Below are positions 21,928 through 30,810 of a stretch of DNA of 64,000 nucleotides, piece after piece. Made by a program: the position numbers and the translations under genes. Each line of letters begins with the position of its first letter. Within the stretch, counting starts at the first letter, position 1. The notes beneath the pieces were generated by a model. The model did no database searches, had not been told where the DNA came from, and saw only the letters and a program-made list of their open reading frames with translations. Origin of the DNA: Okeania sp. SIO2C9 (lineage in GTDB: Bacteria; Cyanobacteriota; Cyanobacteriia; Cyanobacteriales; Microcoleaceae); assembly GCF_010672455.1 (NCBI RefSeq), contig NZ_JAAHGO010000007.1, positions 338,659 to 402,658 of the forward strand, in the 5' to 3' direction.

Positions 21928-22469
21928 CAATTTACACACTGACAGGGGGATAGGGTCATTTCAGTTATCAGTTGTTATGGAATGGCTAAATATAGAATTT
22001 ATTTCCCAAATTGATATTTATACAGTTATATCAAATCCAGTAGCATTGGTGTTATTCAGTATTAAAGAATTTTGGTGTTGGTGAATTAGTACATGATATT
22101 AATCTTAATTATTTAGGAGTCAGTCCTCAGTCCTCAGGAGTCAGGAGGAAAGAAAGAAGAAGAAAGAGTAGTAGAAGGAGAAAATTTTTTGTTCGCACTC
22201 TTATCCGGAAAAAATATCATACCTCAAATCACCAACGCCAGAATTTTGAGTCAATCTTCTTCTTTTCAAGGAGAGGTAATTATTAATTATTAATTATTTT
22301 GCCTATAGGCAGTGGGAGCATCTTGCTTCCGTTCTAAGTTTTGCTTGTCTCCACCTGCAATTACTATCTAGGACTACTAATTATTTAACCGGATATAATA
22401 TTAAGTGTAGCAATCAACAGCATTGCTGAGGGGCGGGATGAATATAAGGTTGTTATTCTGCCTGCGGTG
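21928..22469. other. Non-coding gap before the minisatellite
   Basis: Contains TTATCAG heptamers, a GGCGTTG-type inverted-repeat element (22072-22240), TCAGTCC/TCAGGAG tandem words and a partial TTCAAGGAGAGGTAATTATT repeat (about 22246-22290). No gene is visible. Confidence 0.6.
22072..22240. repeat. MITE-like element, GGCGTTGCTGA family
   Basis: The left end TTGGTGTTGGTGAATT and the right end TCAAATCACCAACGCCA are inverted copies of each other. Related elements are at 29881-30028 and 44528-44723. The interior is purine-rich with GTCAGGAG words. Confidence 0.6.
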
Positions 22470-23634
22470 AAAATATTTGGAATAGGAAAATATCTGGAAT
22501 GGGAAAATATTTGGAATAGGAAAATATCTGGAATGGGAAAATATCTGGAATGGGAAAATATCTGGAATAGGAAAATATCTGGAATGGGAAAATATCTGGA
22601 ACGGAAAAATATCTGGAACGGAAAAATATCTGGAATGGGGAAATATTTGGAATGGGAAAATATCTGGAATGGGAAAATATCTGGAACGGAAAAATATCTG
22701 GAACGGAAAAATATCTGGAATGGGGAAATATTTGGAATGGGAAAATATCTGGAATGGGAAATATCCACAACGGGAAAATATCTGGAATGGGAAAATATCT
22801 GGAATGGGAAATATCCACAACGGGAAAATATTTGGAACATAAAAATATCTACAACGGGAAAATATCTGGAATGGGAAATATCTGAAACGTGAAAATATCT
22901 ACAACGGGAAAATATCTACAACGGGAAAATATTTGGAATGGGGAAATATCTGGAATGGGAAATATCTACAACGGGAAAATATCTGGAATGGGAAATATCT
23001 GGAATGGGAAATATCTACAACGGGAAAATATTTGGAATGGGAAATATCTGAAACGTGAAAATGTTTGGAACGGAAAAATATCTACAACGGGAAAATATTT
23101 GGAATGGGAAATATCTACAACGGGAAAATATCTGGAATGGGAAATATCTGGAATGACAAAATACCTGGAATGGGAAATATCTGGAATGGGAAATATCTAC
23201 AACGGGAAAATATCTGGAATGGGAAAATATCTGGAATGGGAAATATCCGCAACGGGAAAATATCTGGAATGGGAAAATACCTGGAATGGGAAAAATCTGA
23301 AACGTGAAAATATTTGGAACATAAAAATATCTACAACGGGAAAATATCTGGAATGGGAAAATATTTGGAACGTAAAAATATTTGGAACGTAAAAATATTT
23401 GGAATGGGAAAATATCTGGAATGGGAAATATCTACCACGGGAAAATATCTGGAATGGGAAAATATCTGGAATGGGAAATATCTACCACGGGAAAATATCT
23501 GGAATGGGAAAAATCTGAAACGTGAAAATATTTGGAACGGAAAAATATCTGGAATGGGAAAATATTTGGAATGGGAAATATATGAAATGGCAAAATATCT
23601 GGAACGGAAAATATCTGGAATGGCAAAATATCTG

Positions 23635-23739
23635 ATACCAAATCAGATTACTATAGACCACAATTTATTATTGAAAAAAGCTTGATATATATGAATTGTA
23701 GTTGAATTATTTGTGGTCTAACTAAACAGGATTTGGTAT
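23635..23739. repeat. 105-bp inverted-repeat element in the minisatellite, copy 1
   Basis: The ends are ATACCAAATC and GATTTGGTAT, with an inner pair TAGACCACAA / TTGTGGTCTA. The centre holds AAAAAAGCTTGATATATATG. It is unrelated to the minisatellite unit and interrupts it. Confidence 0.85.
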
Positions 23740-26307
23740 GAAATGGGAAAATATCTGGAATCGGGAAATATCTGGAATCGGAAAATATCTGGAATTGGAA
23801 AATATCTGAAATGGGAAAATATCTGGAATGGAAAATATCTGCAACGGAAAATATCTGGAATGACAAAATATCTGGAATGACAAAATATCTGGAATGGCAA
23901 AATATCTGAAATGACAAAATATCTGGAATCGGGAAATATCTGCAACGGGAAATATCTGGAATGGCAAAATATCTGAAATGACAAAATATATGGAATGGCA
24001 AAATATCTGCAACGGGAAATATCTGCAACGGGAAATATCTGGAATGGCAAAATATCTGGAACGGAAAATATTTGGAATGACAAAATATCTGCAACGGGAA
24101 ATATCTGAAATGACAAAATATCTGCAACGGGAAATATCTGAAATGACAAAATATCTGCAACGGGAAATATCTGAAATGACAAAATATCTGAAATGGGAAA
24201 TATCTGAAATTGCAAAATATATGAAATAGGAAAATATATGAAATAGGAAAATATCTGGAACGGAAAATATTTGGAATGGGAAATATTTAGAACGGGAAAT
24301 ATCTGAAATTGCAAAATATCTGAAATTGCAAAATATCTGAAATTGCAAAATATCTGCAACGGGAAATATATGAAATGGCAAAATATCTGCAACGGCAAAT
24401 ATCTGGAATGGCAAAATATCTGGAATGGCAAAATATCTGCAACGGAAAATATTTGGAACGGAAAATATCTGAAATGACAAAATATCTGAAATGGCAAAAT
24501 ATCTGCAACGGCAAATATCTGGAATGACAAAATATCTGGAATGGCAAAATATCTGCAACGGCAAATATCTGGAATGACAAAATATATGGAATGGCAAAAT
24601 ATCTGGAATCGGGAAATATCTGGAATCGGGAAATATCTGGAATCGGGAAATATCTGGAATCGGGAAATATCTGGAATCGGGAAATATCTGAAATGGGAAA
24701 TATCTGAAATGGGAAATATCTGAAATGGGAAATATCTGGAATGAGAAAATATCTGCAACGGGAAAATATCTGCAACGGGAAAATATCTGGAATGACAAAA
24801 TACCTGGAATCGGAAATATCTGCAACGGGAAAATATCTGAAATGGGAAATATCTGGAATGAGAAAATATCTCGAATCGGAAAATATCTGGAATGGGAAAA
24901 TATCTGGAATGGGAAATATCTGAAACGTGAAAATATTTGGAATGGGAAATATCTGGAATGGGAAATATCTGGAATGGGAAAATATCTGGAATGGGAAATA
25001 TCTGGAATGGGAAATATCTGGAATGGGAAAATATCTGGAATGAGAAAATATCTGGAATGAGAAAATATTTGGAATGAGAAAATATTTGGAATGAGAAAAT
25101 ATTTGGAACGGGAAATATCTGAAACGTGAAAATATTTGGAACGGAAAAATATCTACAACGGGAAAATATCTGGAATGAGAACATATCTGGAATGAGAACA
25201 TATCTGGAATGGGAAATATCTGAAACGTGAAAATATTTGGAACGGAAAAATATCTGGAATGGGAAAATATCTGGAATTGGGAAATATCTGGAATGGGAAA
25301 TATCTACAACGGGAAAATATCTGGAACGGAAAAATATCTGGAATGGGAAAATATCTGGAATGGGAAATATCCACAACGGGAAAATATCTGGAATGGGGAA
25401 ATATTTGGAATGGGAAAATATCTGGAATGGGAAATATCCACAACGGGAAAATATCTGGAATGGGAAAATATCTGGAATGGGAAATATCCACAACGGGAAA
25501 ATATTTGGAACATAAAAATATCTACAACGGGAAAATATCTGGAATGGGAAATATCTGAAACGTGAAAATATTTGGAACATAAAAATATCTACAACGGGAA
25601 AATATTTGGAATGGGGAAATATCTGGAATGGGAAATATCTACAACGGGAAAATATCTGGAATGGGAAATATCTGAAACGTGAAAATATCTGGAATGGGAA
25701 ATATCTGAAACGTGAAAATATCTGGAACGGAAAAATATCTACAACGGGAAAATATTTGGAATGGGAAATATCTGGAATAAGAAAATATCTGGAATGGGAA
25801 ATATCTGGAATGAGAAAATACCTGGAATGGGAAATATCTGGAATGGGAAATATCTACAACGGGAAAATATCTGGAATGGGAAATATCTACAACGGGAAAA
25901 TATCTGGAATGGGAAAATATCTGGAATGGGAAATATCCGCAACGGGAAAATATCTGGAATGGGAAAATACCTGGAATGGGAAAAATCTGAAACGTGAAAA
26001 TATTTGGAACATAAAAATATCTACAACGGGAAAATATCTGGAATGGGAAAATATTTGGAACGTGAAAATATTTGGAATGGGGAAATATCTGGAATGGGAA
26101 ATATCTACCACGGGAAAATATCTGGAATGGGAAAATATCTGGAATGGGAAATATCTACCACGGGAAAATATCTGGAATGGGAAAAATCTGAAACGTGAAA
26201 ATATTTGGAACGGAAAAATATCTGGAATGGGAAAATATTTGGAATGGGAAATATATGAAATGGCAAAATATCTGGAACGGAAAATATCTGGAATGGCAAA
26301 ATATCTG

Positions 26308-26412
26308 ATACCAAATCAGATTACTATAGACCACAATTTATTATTGAAAAAAGCTTGATATATATGAATTGTAGTTGAATTATTTGTGGTCTAACTAAAC
26401 AGGATTTGGTAT
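26308..26412. repeat. 105-bp inverted-repeat element in the minisatellite, copy 2
   Basis: Reads the same as the copy at 23635-23739 throughout, with flanking minisatellite units also matching on the left side, as expected if both were carried by a segmental duplication. Confidence 0.85.
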
Positions 26413-26698
26413 GAAATGGGAAAATATCTGGAATCGGGAAATATCTGGAATCGGAAAATATCTGGAATCGGAAAATATCTGAAATGGGAAAATATCTGGA
26501 ATGGAAAATATCTGCAACGGAAAATATCTGGAATGACAAAATATCTGAAATGACAAAATATCTGAAATGGCAAAATATCTGGAACGGAAAATATCTGGAA
26601 CGGAAAATATCTGAAATGACAAAATATCTGGAATGGCAAAATATCTGGAATGGCAAAATATCTGAAATGACAAAATATCTGGAATGGCAAAATATCTG

Positions 26699-26803
26699 AT
26701 ACCAAATCAGATTACTATAGACCACAATTTATTATTGAAAAAAGCTTGATATATATGAATTGTAGTTGAATTATTTGTGGTCTAACTAAACAGGATTTGG
26801 TAT
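26699..26803. repeat. 105-bp inverted-repeat element in the minisatellite, copy 3
   Basis: Reads the same as copies 1 and 2 and lies 391 nt after copy 2. The right flank (GAAATGGGAAAATATCTGGA) is shared by all three. Confidence 0.85.
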
Positions 26804-27562
26804 GAAATGGGAAAATATCTGGAATCGGGAAATATCTGGAATCGGAAAATATCTGAAATGGGAAAATATCTGGAATCGGAAAATATCTGAAATGGCAAAA
26901 TATCTGAAATGGCAAAATATCTGGAACGGAAAATATATGCAACGGGAAATATATGCAACGGAAAATATCTGCAACGGGAAAATATCTGGAACGGGAAATA
27001 TATGCAACGGAAAATATCTGAAATGGCAAAATATCTGAAATGGCAAAATATCTGGAACGGAAAATATCTGAAATGACAAAATATCTGGAATGACAAAATA
27101 TCTGGAATGACAAAATATCTGAAATGGCAAAATATCTGGAATGGGAAATATTTGGAACGGGAAAATATTTGGAATGGCAAAATATCTGCAACGGGAAATA
27201 TCTGGAATGGCAAAATATCTGGAATGGAAAATATCTGGAATGGCAAAATATCTGGAATCGGAAATATCTGGAATGAGAAAATATCTGGAATGGCAAAATA
27301 TCTGGAATCGGAAAATATCTGCAACGGAAAATATCTGGAATGGCAAAATATCTGCAACGGGAAATATCTGGAATGGCAAAATATCTGGAATGGAAAATAT
27401 CTGGAATGGCAAAATATTTGGAATCGGAAAATATCTGCAACGGAAAATATCTGCAACGGAAAATATTTGGAATGGCAAAATATCTGGAATGGAAAATATT
27501 TTTCCTATTATTCCCTATTTTCTGCTATAAAACTAATCACTTATCCAAACTTGAAAATCATT

Positions 27563-29881
27563 ATGCAAAATCCACAAATTAAACCACATTTTCGCATCGA
27601 AATTATCCAACCAAAACACGTTTACCTCTTAGGAGAAAATTCCACTCACGCCCTCACAGGAGAATTTTATTGTCACCTAATTCCCCTATTAGACGGTCAA
27701 CATAGCTTTGAAGAAATTTGTCAATCCCTATCAGAAATAGCAGACTCAGAACAAATCGAATATGTTCTTGATCGCCTCCACAACAAAGGTTATTTAACCA
27801 CAGCAACTCCCCAACTCCCCCAACCAATCGCAGCATTTTGGTCATTACTCAATGTCGAACCACAACTCGCCTCCGAATATCTCCAGAAAATCTCAGTTTA
27901 TGTCGCCTCAGTCGGAAAAACAACCACAAACTTATTAATCGAAAATTTGACAGCAATAGGTATTAAAACCAAGCTTTGGGAAAATTATCCACTAACATCA
28001 GACCGCAACGCACTATTAGTTGTCCTCACCGATGACTACTTACAACCACAACTTGCGAAAATCAATGAAACCGCAGTCTGCGCTCATCAACCTTGGTTAC
28101 TAGCAAAACCTGTGGGAGGGTTACTGTGGTTGGGTCCAATATTTGAACCAGAAGATACCGGATGTTGGGAATGTTTAGCTCAACGTTTGCGCGGTCATCG
28201 GGAAGTTGAAGCTGCTGTTTTGCGACAGAAACAGAAATCTCCTTCCACCAAAAAATCTAGTGCTAGTAAAAGAGAAATTTCTGGATGTCTCCCTACCTCT
28301 TTTGGTTTCCTACCCTCAACTTTAGCAACTGCCATAAATCTAATAACCACTGAAGTTGCCAAATGGATAGTACAAAGATGTGGGGAGGAAATGCCTAACT
28401 TTACTACCCTCGCTGGAAAAGTAATTACCTTTAACCAGACCAACCTAACTACAGAAACTCATATTTTGAGTAAACGACCTCAATGTCAAACTTGTGGCGA
28501 TCCTAAATTACTCAAAGACATGGCATTTTATCCCCTGACTCTTACCAGTAGCAAAAAACATTTTACCTCTGATGGTGGTCATCGCGCACTCACTCCCGAC
28601 CAAACAACAAAACGCTACGAACAACTGATAAGTCCCATTACTGGAGTTGTCAGTGCTTTAGTACCAACCTCCGACCCAAATAATCCTTTAATTCATACCT
28701 ACAATGCTATTCATAGTTTCGGTAGTGCCAAAACCCTCAGTGCTTTGCGTCGTTCCCTTGGTCATAAAAGTGGAGGAAAAGGCAAAAGCGATCGCCAAGC
28801 TAAAGCTAGTGGTTTTTGTGAAGCGATCGAACGTTATTCAGGAATATTCCAAGGAGACGAACCCCGGAAAAAAACAACTTTAGCTGAATTGGGAGAAAAA
28901 GCTATTCACCCAGAAAAAATTTTGCACTTCAGTCCTACTCAGTACGCAAACCGCAAAAAGTTGAATGCCAAAAGTAAAGTAGACTGCGATTGGATTCCCC
29001 TACCTTTTAATGCCAGCAAAAAAATTGATTGGACTCCAGTATGGTCGCTCACAGAAGATACTCGTAAATACTTGCCTACTGCTTGGTGTTATTATGCTTA
29101 TAACTTGCCCACAAACCATAATTTCTGTATAGCTGATTCTAATGGCAACGCTGCTGGCAATACCATAGAAGAAGCAATTTTGCAAGGATTTATGGAATTA
29201 GTAGAGCGCGATAGTGTAGCAATTTGGTGGTACAATCGCCTGAAGCGTCCATCGGTAGATTTAGCCAGTTTTGACGACCCCTATTTATTGGCAGTACAAG
29301 AATTTTATCAACAAAATCATCGCGAGTTATGGGTGTTAGATTTAACCACAGATTTGGGGATACCAGCTTTTAGCGCAGTTTCACATCGAATTGATGGGGA
29401 GTATGAACGAATTATTACAGGTTTTGGAGCGCATTTTGACCCCAAAATTGCCATGCTGCGGGCAGTAACAGAAGTGAATCAAATTGGTTTGGGAATAGAT
29501 GAGGAAGATGTTAGTCAAATGGAAGAAGGGATACAGGAATGGATGACCACAGCAACTATAGAAAATCAACCTTATTTAGCTCCCCACCCAGAAATACCAG
29601 CCAAAGTTTATGGAGATTATCCTCTGCTTTGGAGCGATGACATTTATGAGGATGTTTTGACCTGTGTGAAAATTGCTCAAGGAGCAGGAATGGAAACTTT
29701 GGTATTGGATCAGACTCGTCCAGATATTGAATTAAATGTAGTGAAAGTTATTGTGCCTGAGTTACGCCATTTTTGGCCGCGGTTTGGGGGGGGTAGGTTG
29801 TATGATGTACCTGTGAAAAAGGGTTGGTTGTCTGAACCATTGCGGGAAGAACAGATGAATTCAATGCCGATAATATTTTAG
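27563..29881 (+). CDS. Cyanobactin heterocyclase (PatD/TruD-like, YcaO domain)
   Basis: About 772 residues, the size of PatD and TruD. It would cyclodehydrate Cys (and possibly Ser/Thr) of a precursor peptide to azolines using ATP. The N-terminal part (IKPHFRIEIIQPKHVYLLGE) is the leader-binding and E1-like region. The middle has the zinc Cys pairs GCWECLAQRLRG and CQTCGDPK. The C-terminal YcaO part has HKSGGKGKSDRQAKASGF, CEAIERYSGIFQGDEPRK and LQGFMELVERDSVAIWWYNR, the ATP-binding acidic motifs, and ends GGRLYDVPVKKGW. The frame is open upstream through the minisatellite to 27107, but MQNPQIKPHF is the family-like start. The stop TAG shares its last base with a MITE. No PatA, PatF or PatG is in the window. 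Confidence 0.92.
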   Translation: MQNPQIKPHFRIEIIQPKHVYLLGENSTHALTGEFYCHLIPLLDGQHSFEEICQSLSEIADSEQIEYVLDRLHNKGYLTTATPQLPQPIAAFWSLLNVEPQLASEYLQKISVYVASVGKTTTNLLIENLTAIGIKTKLWENYPLTSDRNALLVVLTDDYLQPQLAKINETAVCAHQPWLLAKPVGGLLWLGPIFEPEDTGCWECLAQRLRGHREVEAAVLRQKQKSPSTKKSSASKREISGCLPTSFGFLPSTLATAINLITTEVAKWIVQRCGEEMPNFTTLAGKVITFNQTNLTTETHILSKRPQCQTCGDPKLLKDMAFYPLTLTSSKKHFTSDGGHRALTPDQTTKRYEQLISPITGVVSALVPTSDPNNPLIHTYNAIHSFGSAKTLSALRRSLGHKSGGKGKSDRQAKASGFCEAIERYSGIFQGDEPRKKTTLAELGEKAIHPEKILHFSPTQYANRKKLNAKSKVDCDWIPLPFNASKKIDWTPVWSLTEDTRKYLPTAWCYYAYNLPTNHNFCIADSNGNAAGNTIEEAILQGFMELVERDSVAIWWYNRLKRPSVDLASFDDPYLLAVQEFYQQNHRELWVLDLTTDLGIPAFSAVSHRIDGEYERIITGFGAHFDPKIAMLRAVTEVNQIGLGIDEEDVSQMEEGIQEWMTTATIENQPYLAPHPEIPAKVYGDYPLLWSDDIYEDVLTCVKIAQGAGMETLVLDQTRPDIELNVVKVIVPELRHFWPRFGGGRLYDVPVKKGWLSEPLREEQMNSMPIIF

Positions 29882-30028
29882 GCGTTGCTGAATTGAAGTA
29901 TGAATGCGCGATTGTTTGGTTCTGGTCAAGCCCCCGCGCATCCCCCAAAATTGGGGGACTTTTAGAATTTTATTCCCCCCAAAATTGGGGGGCTAGGGGG
30001 CAAAATCATACCCAAAATCAGCAACGCC
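29881..30028. repeat. MITE-like element at the heterocyclase stop codon
   Basis: Begins GGCGTTGCTGAATT and ends AAAATCAGCAACGCC, an inverted pair. Its first G is the third base of the heterocyclase TAG stop. Inside is a CCCCCAAAATTGGGGG hairpin pair also found near 51730-51800. Confidence 0.75.
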
Positions 30029-30039
30029 ATATTTTAATA

Positions 30040-30345
30040 TCATGTCCGAATTGACATCCTCCCGACGCTGCACTTGCGTGACAGCGCGGGATTCCTAACC
30101 ATCGCGCTCTTAGGTCTTTCTGCTGCCTCTTGCAGAGGAGCTGCGCTAACAATGCACCAGCCTCCAAGGTCGAGCCTCTTTTCGGTCTAAAGGCGCGCTC
30201 CACAGACTGACACTGCTAGCCCAGCAGCCAGAGTTTTAGTCTAACATACTATTGACATGCGCCTCAAAATTGATTGGTTTTTCCTCCGGAATGCGCTCGC
30301 ATTCATCCCGACCCTCCCCTTTGGGAGAGCGCGGGTCTTCAACCA
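30040..30345. mobile_element. Decayed IS200/IS605-type end(s) between heterocyclase and precursor
   Basis: Two CCCGAC-stem-GCGGG hairpins lie at about 30059-30092 (after TTGACATCCT) and about 30297-30340 (TTTGGGAGAGCGCGGGTC). Between them the minus strand reads RPKRGSTLEAGALLAQLLC and QQKDLRARWLGIPR. This resembles the sequence found at the 3' end of cyanobacterial tnpB genes and their omega-RNA region. No intact nuclease gene remains. Confidence 0.45.
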
Positions 30346-30624
30346 ACGTTGAGATAATAGAGGAGTCAGGAGGACCGAGTCAGGAGGGAAGAAGAGGGAG
30401 TTTTCGAGTATAATATCAAATCTCATTAATTAGCCATAATAAATCAGCTATCTTTAGTCATCTTAAAGATGACTTCTGCTGTGAGCCAAGAAATAAATTT
30501 CTTGGCGGATGACAACGCCACACAACTTTATACCTGATGGCTCGCCAAGCCAAGCTTGACAGTAGTGACTCATAAATCTAAAATGCAAGCAAATTAAGCT
30601 AAAAATACACAGAGGAATAATCCG

Positions 30625-30810
30625 ATGGCCAAGAAAAATCTGATGCCACAACAACAAAAGCCTGTGATTCGCTTGAACATTGAAAAACCTATAGAGGGAC
30701 TTGAAGAAGAAAACCTGACAACTGGCTTTGCTTCCAGGGAGGGCATAGCCCCACAAGGTTCCAGGAGGAATCTGCCTTACAGATGTTCCTACGACAGTGA
30801 CGCAGAATAA
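30625..30810 (+). CDS. Cyanobactin-type precursor peptide (PatE-like)
   Basis: A 61-residue peptide. The leader MAKKNLMPQQQKPVIRL closely follows the PatE/TruE leader start (M.KKN..PQ...PVIRL). Residues 24-31 (EGLEEENL) sit where the heterocyclase-recognition helix LAELSEEAL is expected. GIAPQ (40-44) is a possible N-terminal protease site, a variant of the G.E.S type. The probable core is residues 45-54 (GSRRNLPYRC), ending in the only cysteine. SYDSDAE (55-61) matches the SYD/AYD C-terminal signal seen by macrocyclases. A GAGGAA ribosome site lies about 8 nt upstream of the ATG. It is about 740 nt from its likely heterocyclase, with two insertions between. The Arg-rich core is odd for the family. 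Confidence 0.75.
   Translation: MAKKNLMPQQQKPVIRLNIEKPIEGLEEENLTTGFASREGIAPQGSRRNLPYRCSYDSDAE

Follow-up and report, generated by a model that had tools for sequence, protein, structure and literature searches.

A cyanobactin heterocyclase and precursor of Okeania, probably part of a functional pathway with dispersed genes

The window considered here is a 64,000-nucleotide stretch of contig C285 in the genome of Okeania sp. SIO2C9 (G000; 10.9 Mb, 99.98% complete). It carries a gene for a cyanobactin heterocyclase (D) followed by one for a cyanobactin precursor peptide (E), and the isolation of this pair within the 64 kb is real. Probably, the pair supplies the heterocyclase and the precursor for a functional cyanobactin pathway of the trichamide type, with its genes spread over two or three loci: genes for a PatG-type (G) and a PatA-type (A) protease lie on another contig, C112, and their products would act on E in trans. 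A pathway that is whole but dispersed is the most likely state of the system. With a little less assurance, we also favor a fuller picture, in which the pathway works, D-E and the proteases are unlinked across the genus, the product is a cationic, arginine-rich thiazoline macrocycle, and the parts are inherited and lost as a unit.

The heterocyclase, the precursor and two candidate protease partners

An earlier sequence-only reading of the window described D as a 772-residue protein resembling PatD/TruD from end to end, and both its coordinates and its size proved right: alignments with MusD (7u58), LynD (4v1t) and TruD (4bs9) score 1008-1067 bits and extend from D residue 4 or 5 to residue 769 or 772. 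The YcaO domain (PF02624; E=2.9e-100) is accompanied by a TIGR03882 leader-binding domain (135 bits, cut-off 36.9) and a TIGR03604 SagD family match (257 bits, cut-off 219), so that D has the make-up of the PatD/TruD/LynD heterocyclases, a fused leader-binding and YcaO protein of ~770 residues. The mechanical open reading frame (ORF) opens at 27107, within a tandem repeat; the start was set at the ATG at 27563 (stop codon 29879-29881) because of the alignment with MusD and its relatives. By eye, ORFs of the same 17-bp repeat type also precede D at two other loci (L026, L027); a part in rearrangement or in D expression is conceivable for the array.

The description of the downstream 61-residue peptide as having a PatE-type leader and an SYD tail also held up. 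E matches the precursor family PF19155 (DUF5837) over residues 1-60 with 36.8 bits (cut-off 25), the only one of the three matches listed in the genome to exceed the cut-off, and is thereby a cyanobactin precursor by family; three NCBIfam cyanobactin models match it as well, each under its own cut-off. Three other Okeania genomes carry E as an open 61-residue frame (87-93% identity). In all four intact Okeania precursors the core is flanked by GIAPQ and SYD, by sequence an RSII-like signal and an (A/S)YD-type RSIII signal; the core itself is GARRNRPYRC in the other three. The leader stretch IEGLEEENL we take to be RSI, from its position and its motif.

The PatA/PatG-family model (TIGR03895) has 15 matches in the genome, three of them above cut-off (C112:75900, C112:1944 and C212:32653), and the remaining genome subtilisins were rejected as PatA/G candidates on that basis. 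None of the 15 matches, and none of the 13 subtilisin (PF00082) matches of the genome, is on the window contig; PatF (TIGR04445) has no match above cut-off anywhere in the genome (best 11.3 bits, cut-off 140). The earlier claim that PatA-, PatG- and PatF-like genes are missing near the pair therefore stands, and the genome-wide search that it called for, for PatA/PatG domains and other PatE leaders, yields three A/G proteases and a single E above cut-off. Its suggestion that the remaining enzymes are supplied from elsewhere in the genome is supported as far as the genes go, with PatG- and PatA-type proteases on C112; that they act on E is our reading of the family mechanism.

The first C112 protease, C112b (G), scores 333-338 bits against the PatG macrocyclase chains 4h6x, 4aks and 4akt (4h6x 338) versus 226-255 bits against PatA chains (PatA-type 4h6w 255). 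Its phmmer alignment with PatG runs through the catalytic Asp-His stretch, where the PatG lid sits, so that at the level of the alignment G appears to have the subtilisin triad and the lid insertion between Asp and His that mark a PatG macrocyclase; the triad residues themselves are assigned from known motifs on that alignment. Residues 436-714 match the PatG DUF (4uvq), and there is no fused oxidase because the protein begins at the protease part. The second, C112a (A), scores 447 bits against PatA versus 199 against PatG-type chains, and the C212 protease 399 versus 206. In a tree, 22 A/G proteins of 13 genomes split with 100/100 support into 10 G-side rows, among them C112b and four fused PatG proteins, and 12 A-side rows, which include C112a and C212, the latter on a long branch. 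The genome thus has both protease types of a cyanobactin pathway. No D or E match was found in the 19 kb fetched around the C212 protease, and two precursor queries gave no precursor near A or G at E<=1e-4 (loci L023, L024, L025, L105-L109 and L113).

A second PatA-type gene is also present in G043 (C46) and G042 (C33), 60% and 56% identical to C112a, respectively. The G protease of G041 (L106:11433-13724, minus strand) has an extra in-frame stretch of ~45-50 residues after about residue 390.

Dispersal, constraint and joint loss

Four further Okeania genomes were compared with the window genome, all of the assemblies being drafts: the metagenome-assembled genomes SIO2B3 (G041), SIO1I7 (G042) and SIO3B5 (G043), with D 93-96% identical to the window D, and a sister genome, G040 (same genus, 99% complete). 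In all four intact genomes (G000, G041, G042, G043), D-E and the A/G genes are on different contigs. A single cluster is usual for cyanobactins, and is not part of their chemical definition. A and G are ~0.6 and ~0.8 kb apart on one contig in G041 and G042, with D-E on another.

A genome of another genus in the same family, G054, has G, A, an E-like ORF, a separate oxidase and D within 12.5 kb on contig C175. Identity to the window genome is 81% for its D, 83% for its A and 78-81% for its G; its stand-alone oxidase is related to CyaGox (440 bits), and its E-like ORF ends in GDGLHPRLCSC-SYDGDDE, with a core start set by analogy with trichamide. Aminoacyl-tRNA synthetase-like ORFs, named by eye rather than by family search, are on both sides of the cluster. 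G054 appears to be Trichodesmium, a genus placed next to Okeania (PMC7825088). In G056, contig C66 carries G, A, an oxidase and several E-like stretches and contig C107 carries D and two E-like ORFs; the two sets may belong to a single cluster split at an assembly break. With one cluster in G054 and two or three pieces in Okeania, the idea of a broken-up cluster is right as history. Apart from D itself, nothing at the Okeania D-E loci matches the ORFs of at least 100 residues at the G054, G056 and G060 loci (E<=1e-15), and a D-E pair still at a G054-type site was rejected, no neighboring ORF being common to the two loci at that threshold. A 112-residue ORF beside G in G056 has a match next to G in each of four Okeania genomes (81-88%), and some of the G neighborhood may thus be ancestral.

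As loss of function, the broken-cluster idea fares less well. Pairwise ratios of nonsynonymous to synonymous change (dN/dS, Nei-Gojobori) among the intact Okeania genomes are 0.136-0.191 for D (four genomes), 0.056-0.195 for A, 0.121-0.251 for E (on 1-8 nonsynonymous changes per pair) and 0.100-0.278 for G (three genomes, G043 partial and G041 left out for its extra stretch). D, E, A and G are under purifying selection, and their split therefore need not mean that function was lost.

The pieces have decayed together in G040. There, only a piece of D is left, covering about residues 229-412; it contains a stop and ends ~170-210 bp 5' of E; E keeps its leader and has lost its frame in the core; G lacks about residues 1-140 and has two stops; and a search with the A protein gives only the broken G (2 matches, 6 of 6 candidates scored). 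A is present in the other four Okeania genomes, cut only in G043, by a contig end. Two control genes survive in G040: D2, a second cyanobactin-type heterocyclase, and E2, a stand-alone small ORF with a cyanobactin-like leader, which is open and 84% identical. Since both are kept while D-E-A-G are broken or not found, the loss follows the unlinked D-E-A-G set.

E2 also bears on the possibility that the A and G proteases serve this other precursor, leaving D-E without a partner. Its leader would suit such a role, and, being without cysteine, it would perhaps need no heterocyclase; but it matches the precursor family only weakly (16.9 bits, cut-off 25), and it persists in G040 beside a broken G and no A match: D-E, and not E2, track A-G, which makes this arrangement very improbable. 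E2 is present in all five Okeania genomes (84-91% identical in the other four). D2, the only other strong heterocyclase match in the genome, is likewise found in five of five Okeania genomes, and in other genera. A complete second pat-type cluster, which would have told against the pair, was sought and rejected, since the 20 kb fetched around D2 gave no hit to A, G or E at E<=1e-4.

The sequence-only reading had also proposed that linear heterocyclised peptides are made. In that case D and E alone would produce an uncyclised peptide, and some unrelated protease would remove its leader. The lack of A/G family matches on C285 and of any F found in the genome would fit this, as would the existence of linear cyanobactins (PMC4663559), but a PatG-type protease that aligns through the lid region is kept and constrained in the same genomes, and is broken in the sole Okeania genome in which D-E is broken. 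We regard a linear product as distinctly unlikely.

Co-occurrence over the 61 genomes of the family points the same way as the joint loss. A near-full-length D (at least 57% identity and at least 722 residues) is present in 15; a PatA/G match (E<=1e-60; only 18 candidates scored in genomes with more) accompanies it in 15 of 15, versus 14 of the 46 others (Fisher p=1.1e-6, relatedness ignored), and G040, with its broken G, is counted among those 14. A D-like match at E<=1e-50 occurs in 23 genomes, 8 of them outside the D class: G007 and G057, each with a partial gene, and six (G001, G019, G020, G032, G036 and G040) in which the best full gene is only 47-50% identical to D.

Several observations pull against a dispersed functional pathway. 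G040 is a single lineage, so that the joint decay is one event and not a statistic, and partial D-like genes in G007 (54%) and G057 (53%) have no protease match at E<=1e-60. A and G of the window genome are ~72 kb apart on C112, on opposite strands, which leaves its pathway genes spread more widely than those of G041 and G042; were C285 and C112 joined at their nearest ends in these drafts, D-E would be at least ~54 kb from G. In G043, a contig end cuts A and the G match stops at most 0.3 kb from a contig end. The tail of the window E is SYDS rather than SYDG, and a very basic core is unusual for cyanobactins, known products being mostly hydrophobic. Arginine-containing cyanobactins are known, however, e.g., autumnalamide (PMC9609003).

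Some of these features would suit a pathway that is breaking down, with the D-E pair a relic making nothing and the intact frames reflecting only the recency of the loss: A and G are apart in the window genome, SYDG has turned to SYDS, the whole set has decayed in G040, and the oxidase is left as fragments in G041 and G042, with no ortholog or such fragment found in the window genome. Yet all four genes have intact frames there; their dN/dS values in comparisons of G000 with every intact Okeania relative tested are 0.12-0.28, not near 1; and dS for D reaches 0.23 within Okeania, enough time for a decay that did not occur. A relic is thus unlikely, and the proposed functional pathway is carried forward below.

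Predicted product and known systems

In the family mechanism, RSI in the leader directs heterocyclisation, A cuts at RSII, and G cuts at RSIII, where a thiazoline or proline precedes the cleavage site, and then joins the ends (PMC4663559, PMC10043927). By analogy, D would bind the leader of E and convert the C-terminal Cys54 of the core to thiazoline; C112a, or possibly the C212 protease, would cut after GIAPQ (Gln44); and C112b would cut before SYD, after residue 54, and close a ten-residue ring. The SYDS tail, with serine at P4', may slow this final step, the known PatG signal being AYDG (PMC10043927). The predicted product is an arginine-rich cyclic decapeptide, cyclo(GSRRNLPYR-thiazoline), with [M+H]+ 1185.606 and [M+2H]2+ 593.307. 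The linear thiazoline core would have a calculated mass of 1203.616, equal to that of an unmodified ring, and the cyclic thiazoline from GARRNRPYRC one of 1212.628. No ortholog of the PatG-type oxidase was found in the window genome (best 34 bits), nor a separate oxidase of the trichamide type, so the ring should stay a thiazoline; no PatF was found, so it should be unprenylated. Trichamide is a known exception to the presence of PatF (PMC4663559). Stretches of 44-48 residues, 77-84% identical to the G054 stand-alone oxidase, occur in the relatives (G042:C33:585130-585261 and G041:C184:300767-300910) and are probably relics of a lost oxidase; none of this type was found in the window genome.

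MusD, LynD and TruD are homologous to D end to end, but their genes are in contiguous clusters, unlike D. The patellamide and trunkamide systems (pat/tru) share the D, E, A-type and G-type families and the leader and tail signals of E, and differ in that here PatF is not found, no oxidase is fused to the PatG-type protease, and the genes are not contiguous. Patellin 2 also retains its thiazoline (PMC4663559). A close likeness is to trichamide of Trichodesmium erythraeum, described in a review (PMC4663559) as an 11-residue ring with two cysteine-derived thiazoles. Its tri cluster of ~12.5 kb is bordered by tRNA synthetase genes; its genes run both ways and encode two proteases, one heterocyclase, an oxidase that is separate from the protease, and no F. 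G054 matches in its separate oxidase, two proteases, one D and one E, in both gene directions, in the lack of an F match and in an 11-residue core with two cysteines; Okeania differs in having its genes at two or three loci, an oxidase absent or fragmentary, E downstream of D, and another core sequence, basic and with one cysteine. Heterocycloanthracin offers a TOMM precedent, in that its precursor gene is often at a distance from those of the enzymes (PMC4603692); it belongs to another TOMM family, and there the precursor is apart from the cyclodehydratase, whereas here it is the proteases that are apart.

Table 1. Features of the window (plain coordinates) and of other loci discussed in the text
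Feature	Position	Strand	Basis or remark
D, fused cyanobactin heterocyclase (winged helix, leader-binding part, YcaO domain), 772 residues	27563..29881	+	Profile and structure-chain matches
D, N-terminal winged-helix domain (PF21084, residues 5-79)	27575..27799	+	Pfam
D, YcaO cyclodehydratase domain (PF02624, residues 405-735)	28775..29767	+	Pfam
E, cyanobactin precursor, 61 residues (DUF5837/PF19155)	30625..30810	+	Pfam; conserved in Okeania
E, putative heterocyclase recognition stretch IEGLEEENL (leader, RSI position)	30691..30717	+	Identical in 4/4 intact Okeania precursors
E, putative PatA-type cleavage signal GIAPQ (RSII position)	30742..30756	+	Identical in 4/4 intact Okeania precursors; cleavage site predicted
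E, predicted core GSRRNLPYRC, single C-terminal Cys	30757..30786	+	Sequence
E, putative PatG-type tail signal SYDS	30787..30798	+	SYDG in the other three intact Okeania precursors
17-bp tandem repeat array, ~300 copies, 78% matches	22469..27499	.	Ends 63 bp 5' of D start
C112b (G), PatG-type macrocyclase protease, 715 residues, no fused oxidase	C112:1941-4085		Structure-chain matches and tree
C112a (A), PatA-type protease	C112:75711-77687		Structure-chain matches and tree
C212 protease, second PatA-type, 59% identical to C112a	L025:8644-10665	-	Structure-chain matches and tree
D2, second cyanobactin-type heterocyclase, 48% identical to D	G000:C2:174367-176655 (L022:9349-11664)		Genome search
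E2, stand-alone 58-residue ORF, cyanobactin-like leader, no Cys, tail FAGDDAE	G000:C2:228616-228789 (L070:1393-1569)	-	~52 kb from D2
G of G054	C175:56088-58190
A of G054	C175:59349-61343
E-like ORF of G054	C175:62059-62259
D of G054	C175:66287-68593

Meaning of a dispersed pathway

The chemistry itself is not new; the interest is in dispersal with constraint, in G040 as a natural knock-out set, and in the basic core. PMC7825088 counts bacteriocins/cyanobactins among the major classes of gene cluster in 24 marine genomes, of which 10 are Okeania; as a class, such genes may therefore already have been published for this genus. Among the papers listed by literature searches (at most 15 per search, by title and abstract opening, one search giving mostly unrelated papers), none dealt with dispersed cyanobactin genes in Okeania, which is weak evidence of absence. 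A cyanobactin search based on gene neighborhoods would take the D-E pair for an orphan heterocyclase and overlook the pathway. Together, Okeania and the G054 genus make a before-and-after case, in which a cluster for a ribosomally synthesised and post-translationally modified peptide (RiPP) came apart and constraint on its pieces was kept. The need for clustering in such pathways thereby becomes testable, with G040 as the sister genome in which all the parts have decayed.

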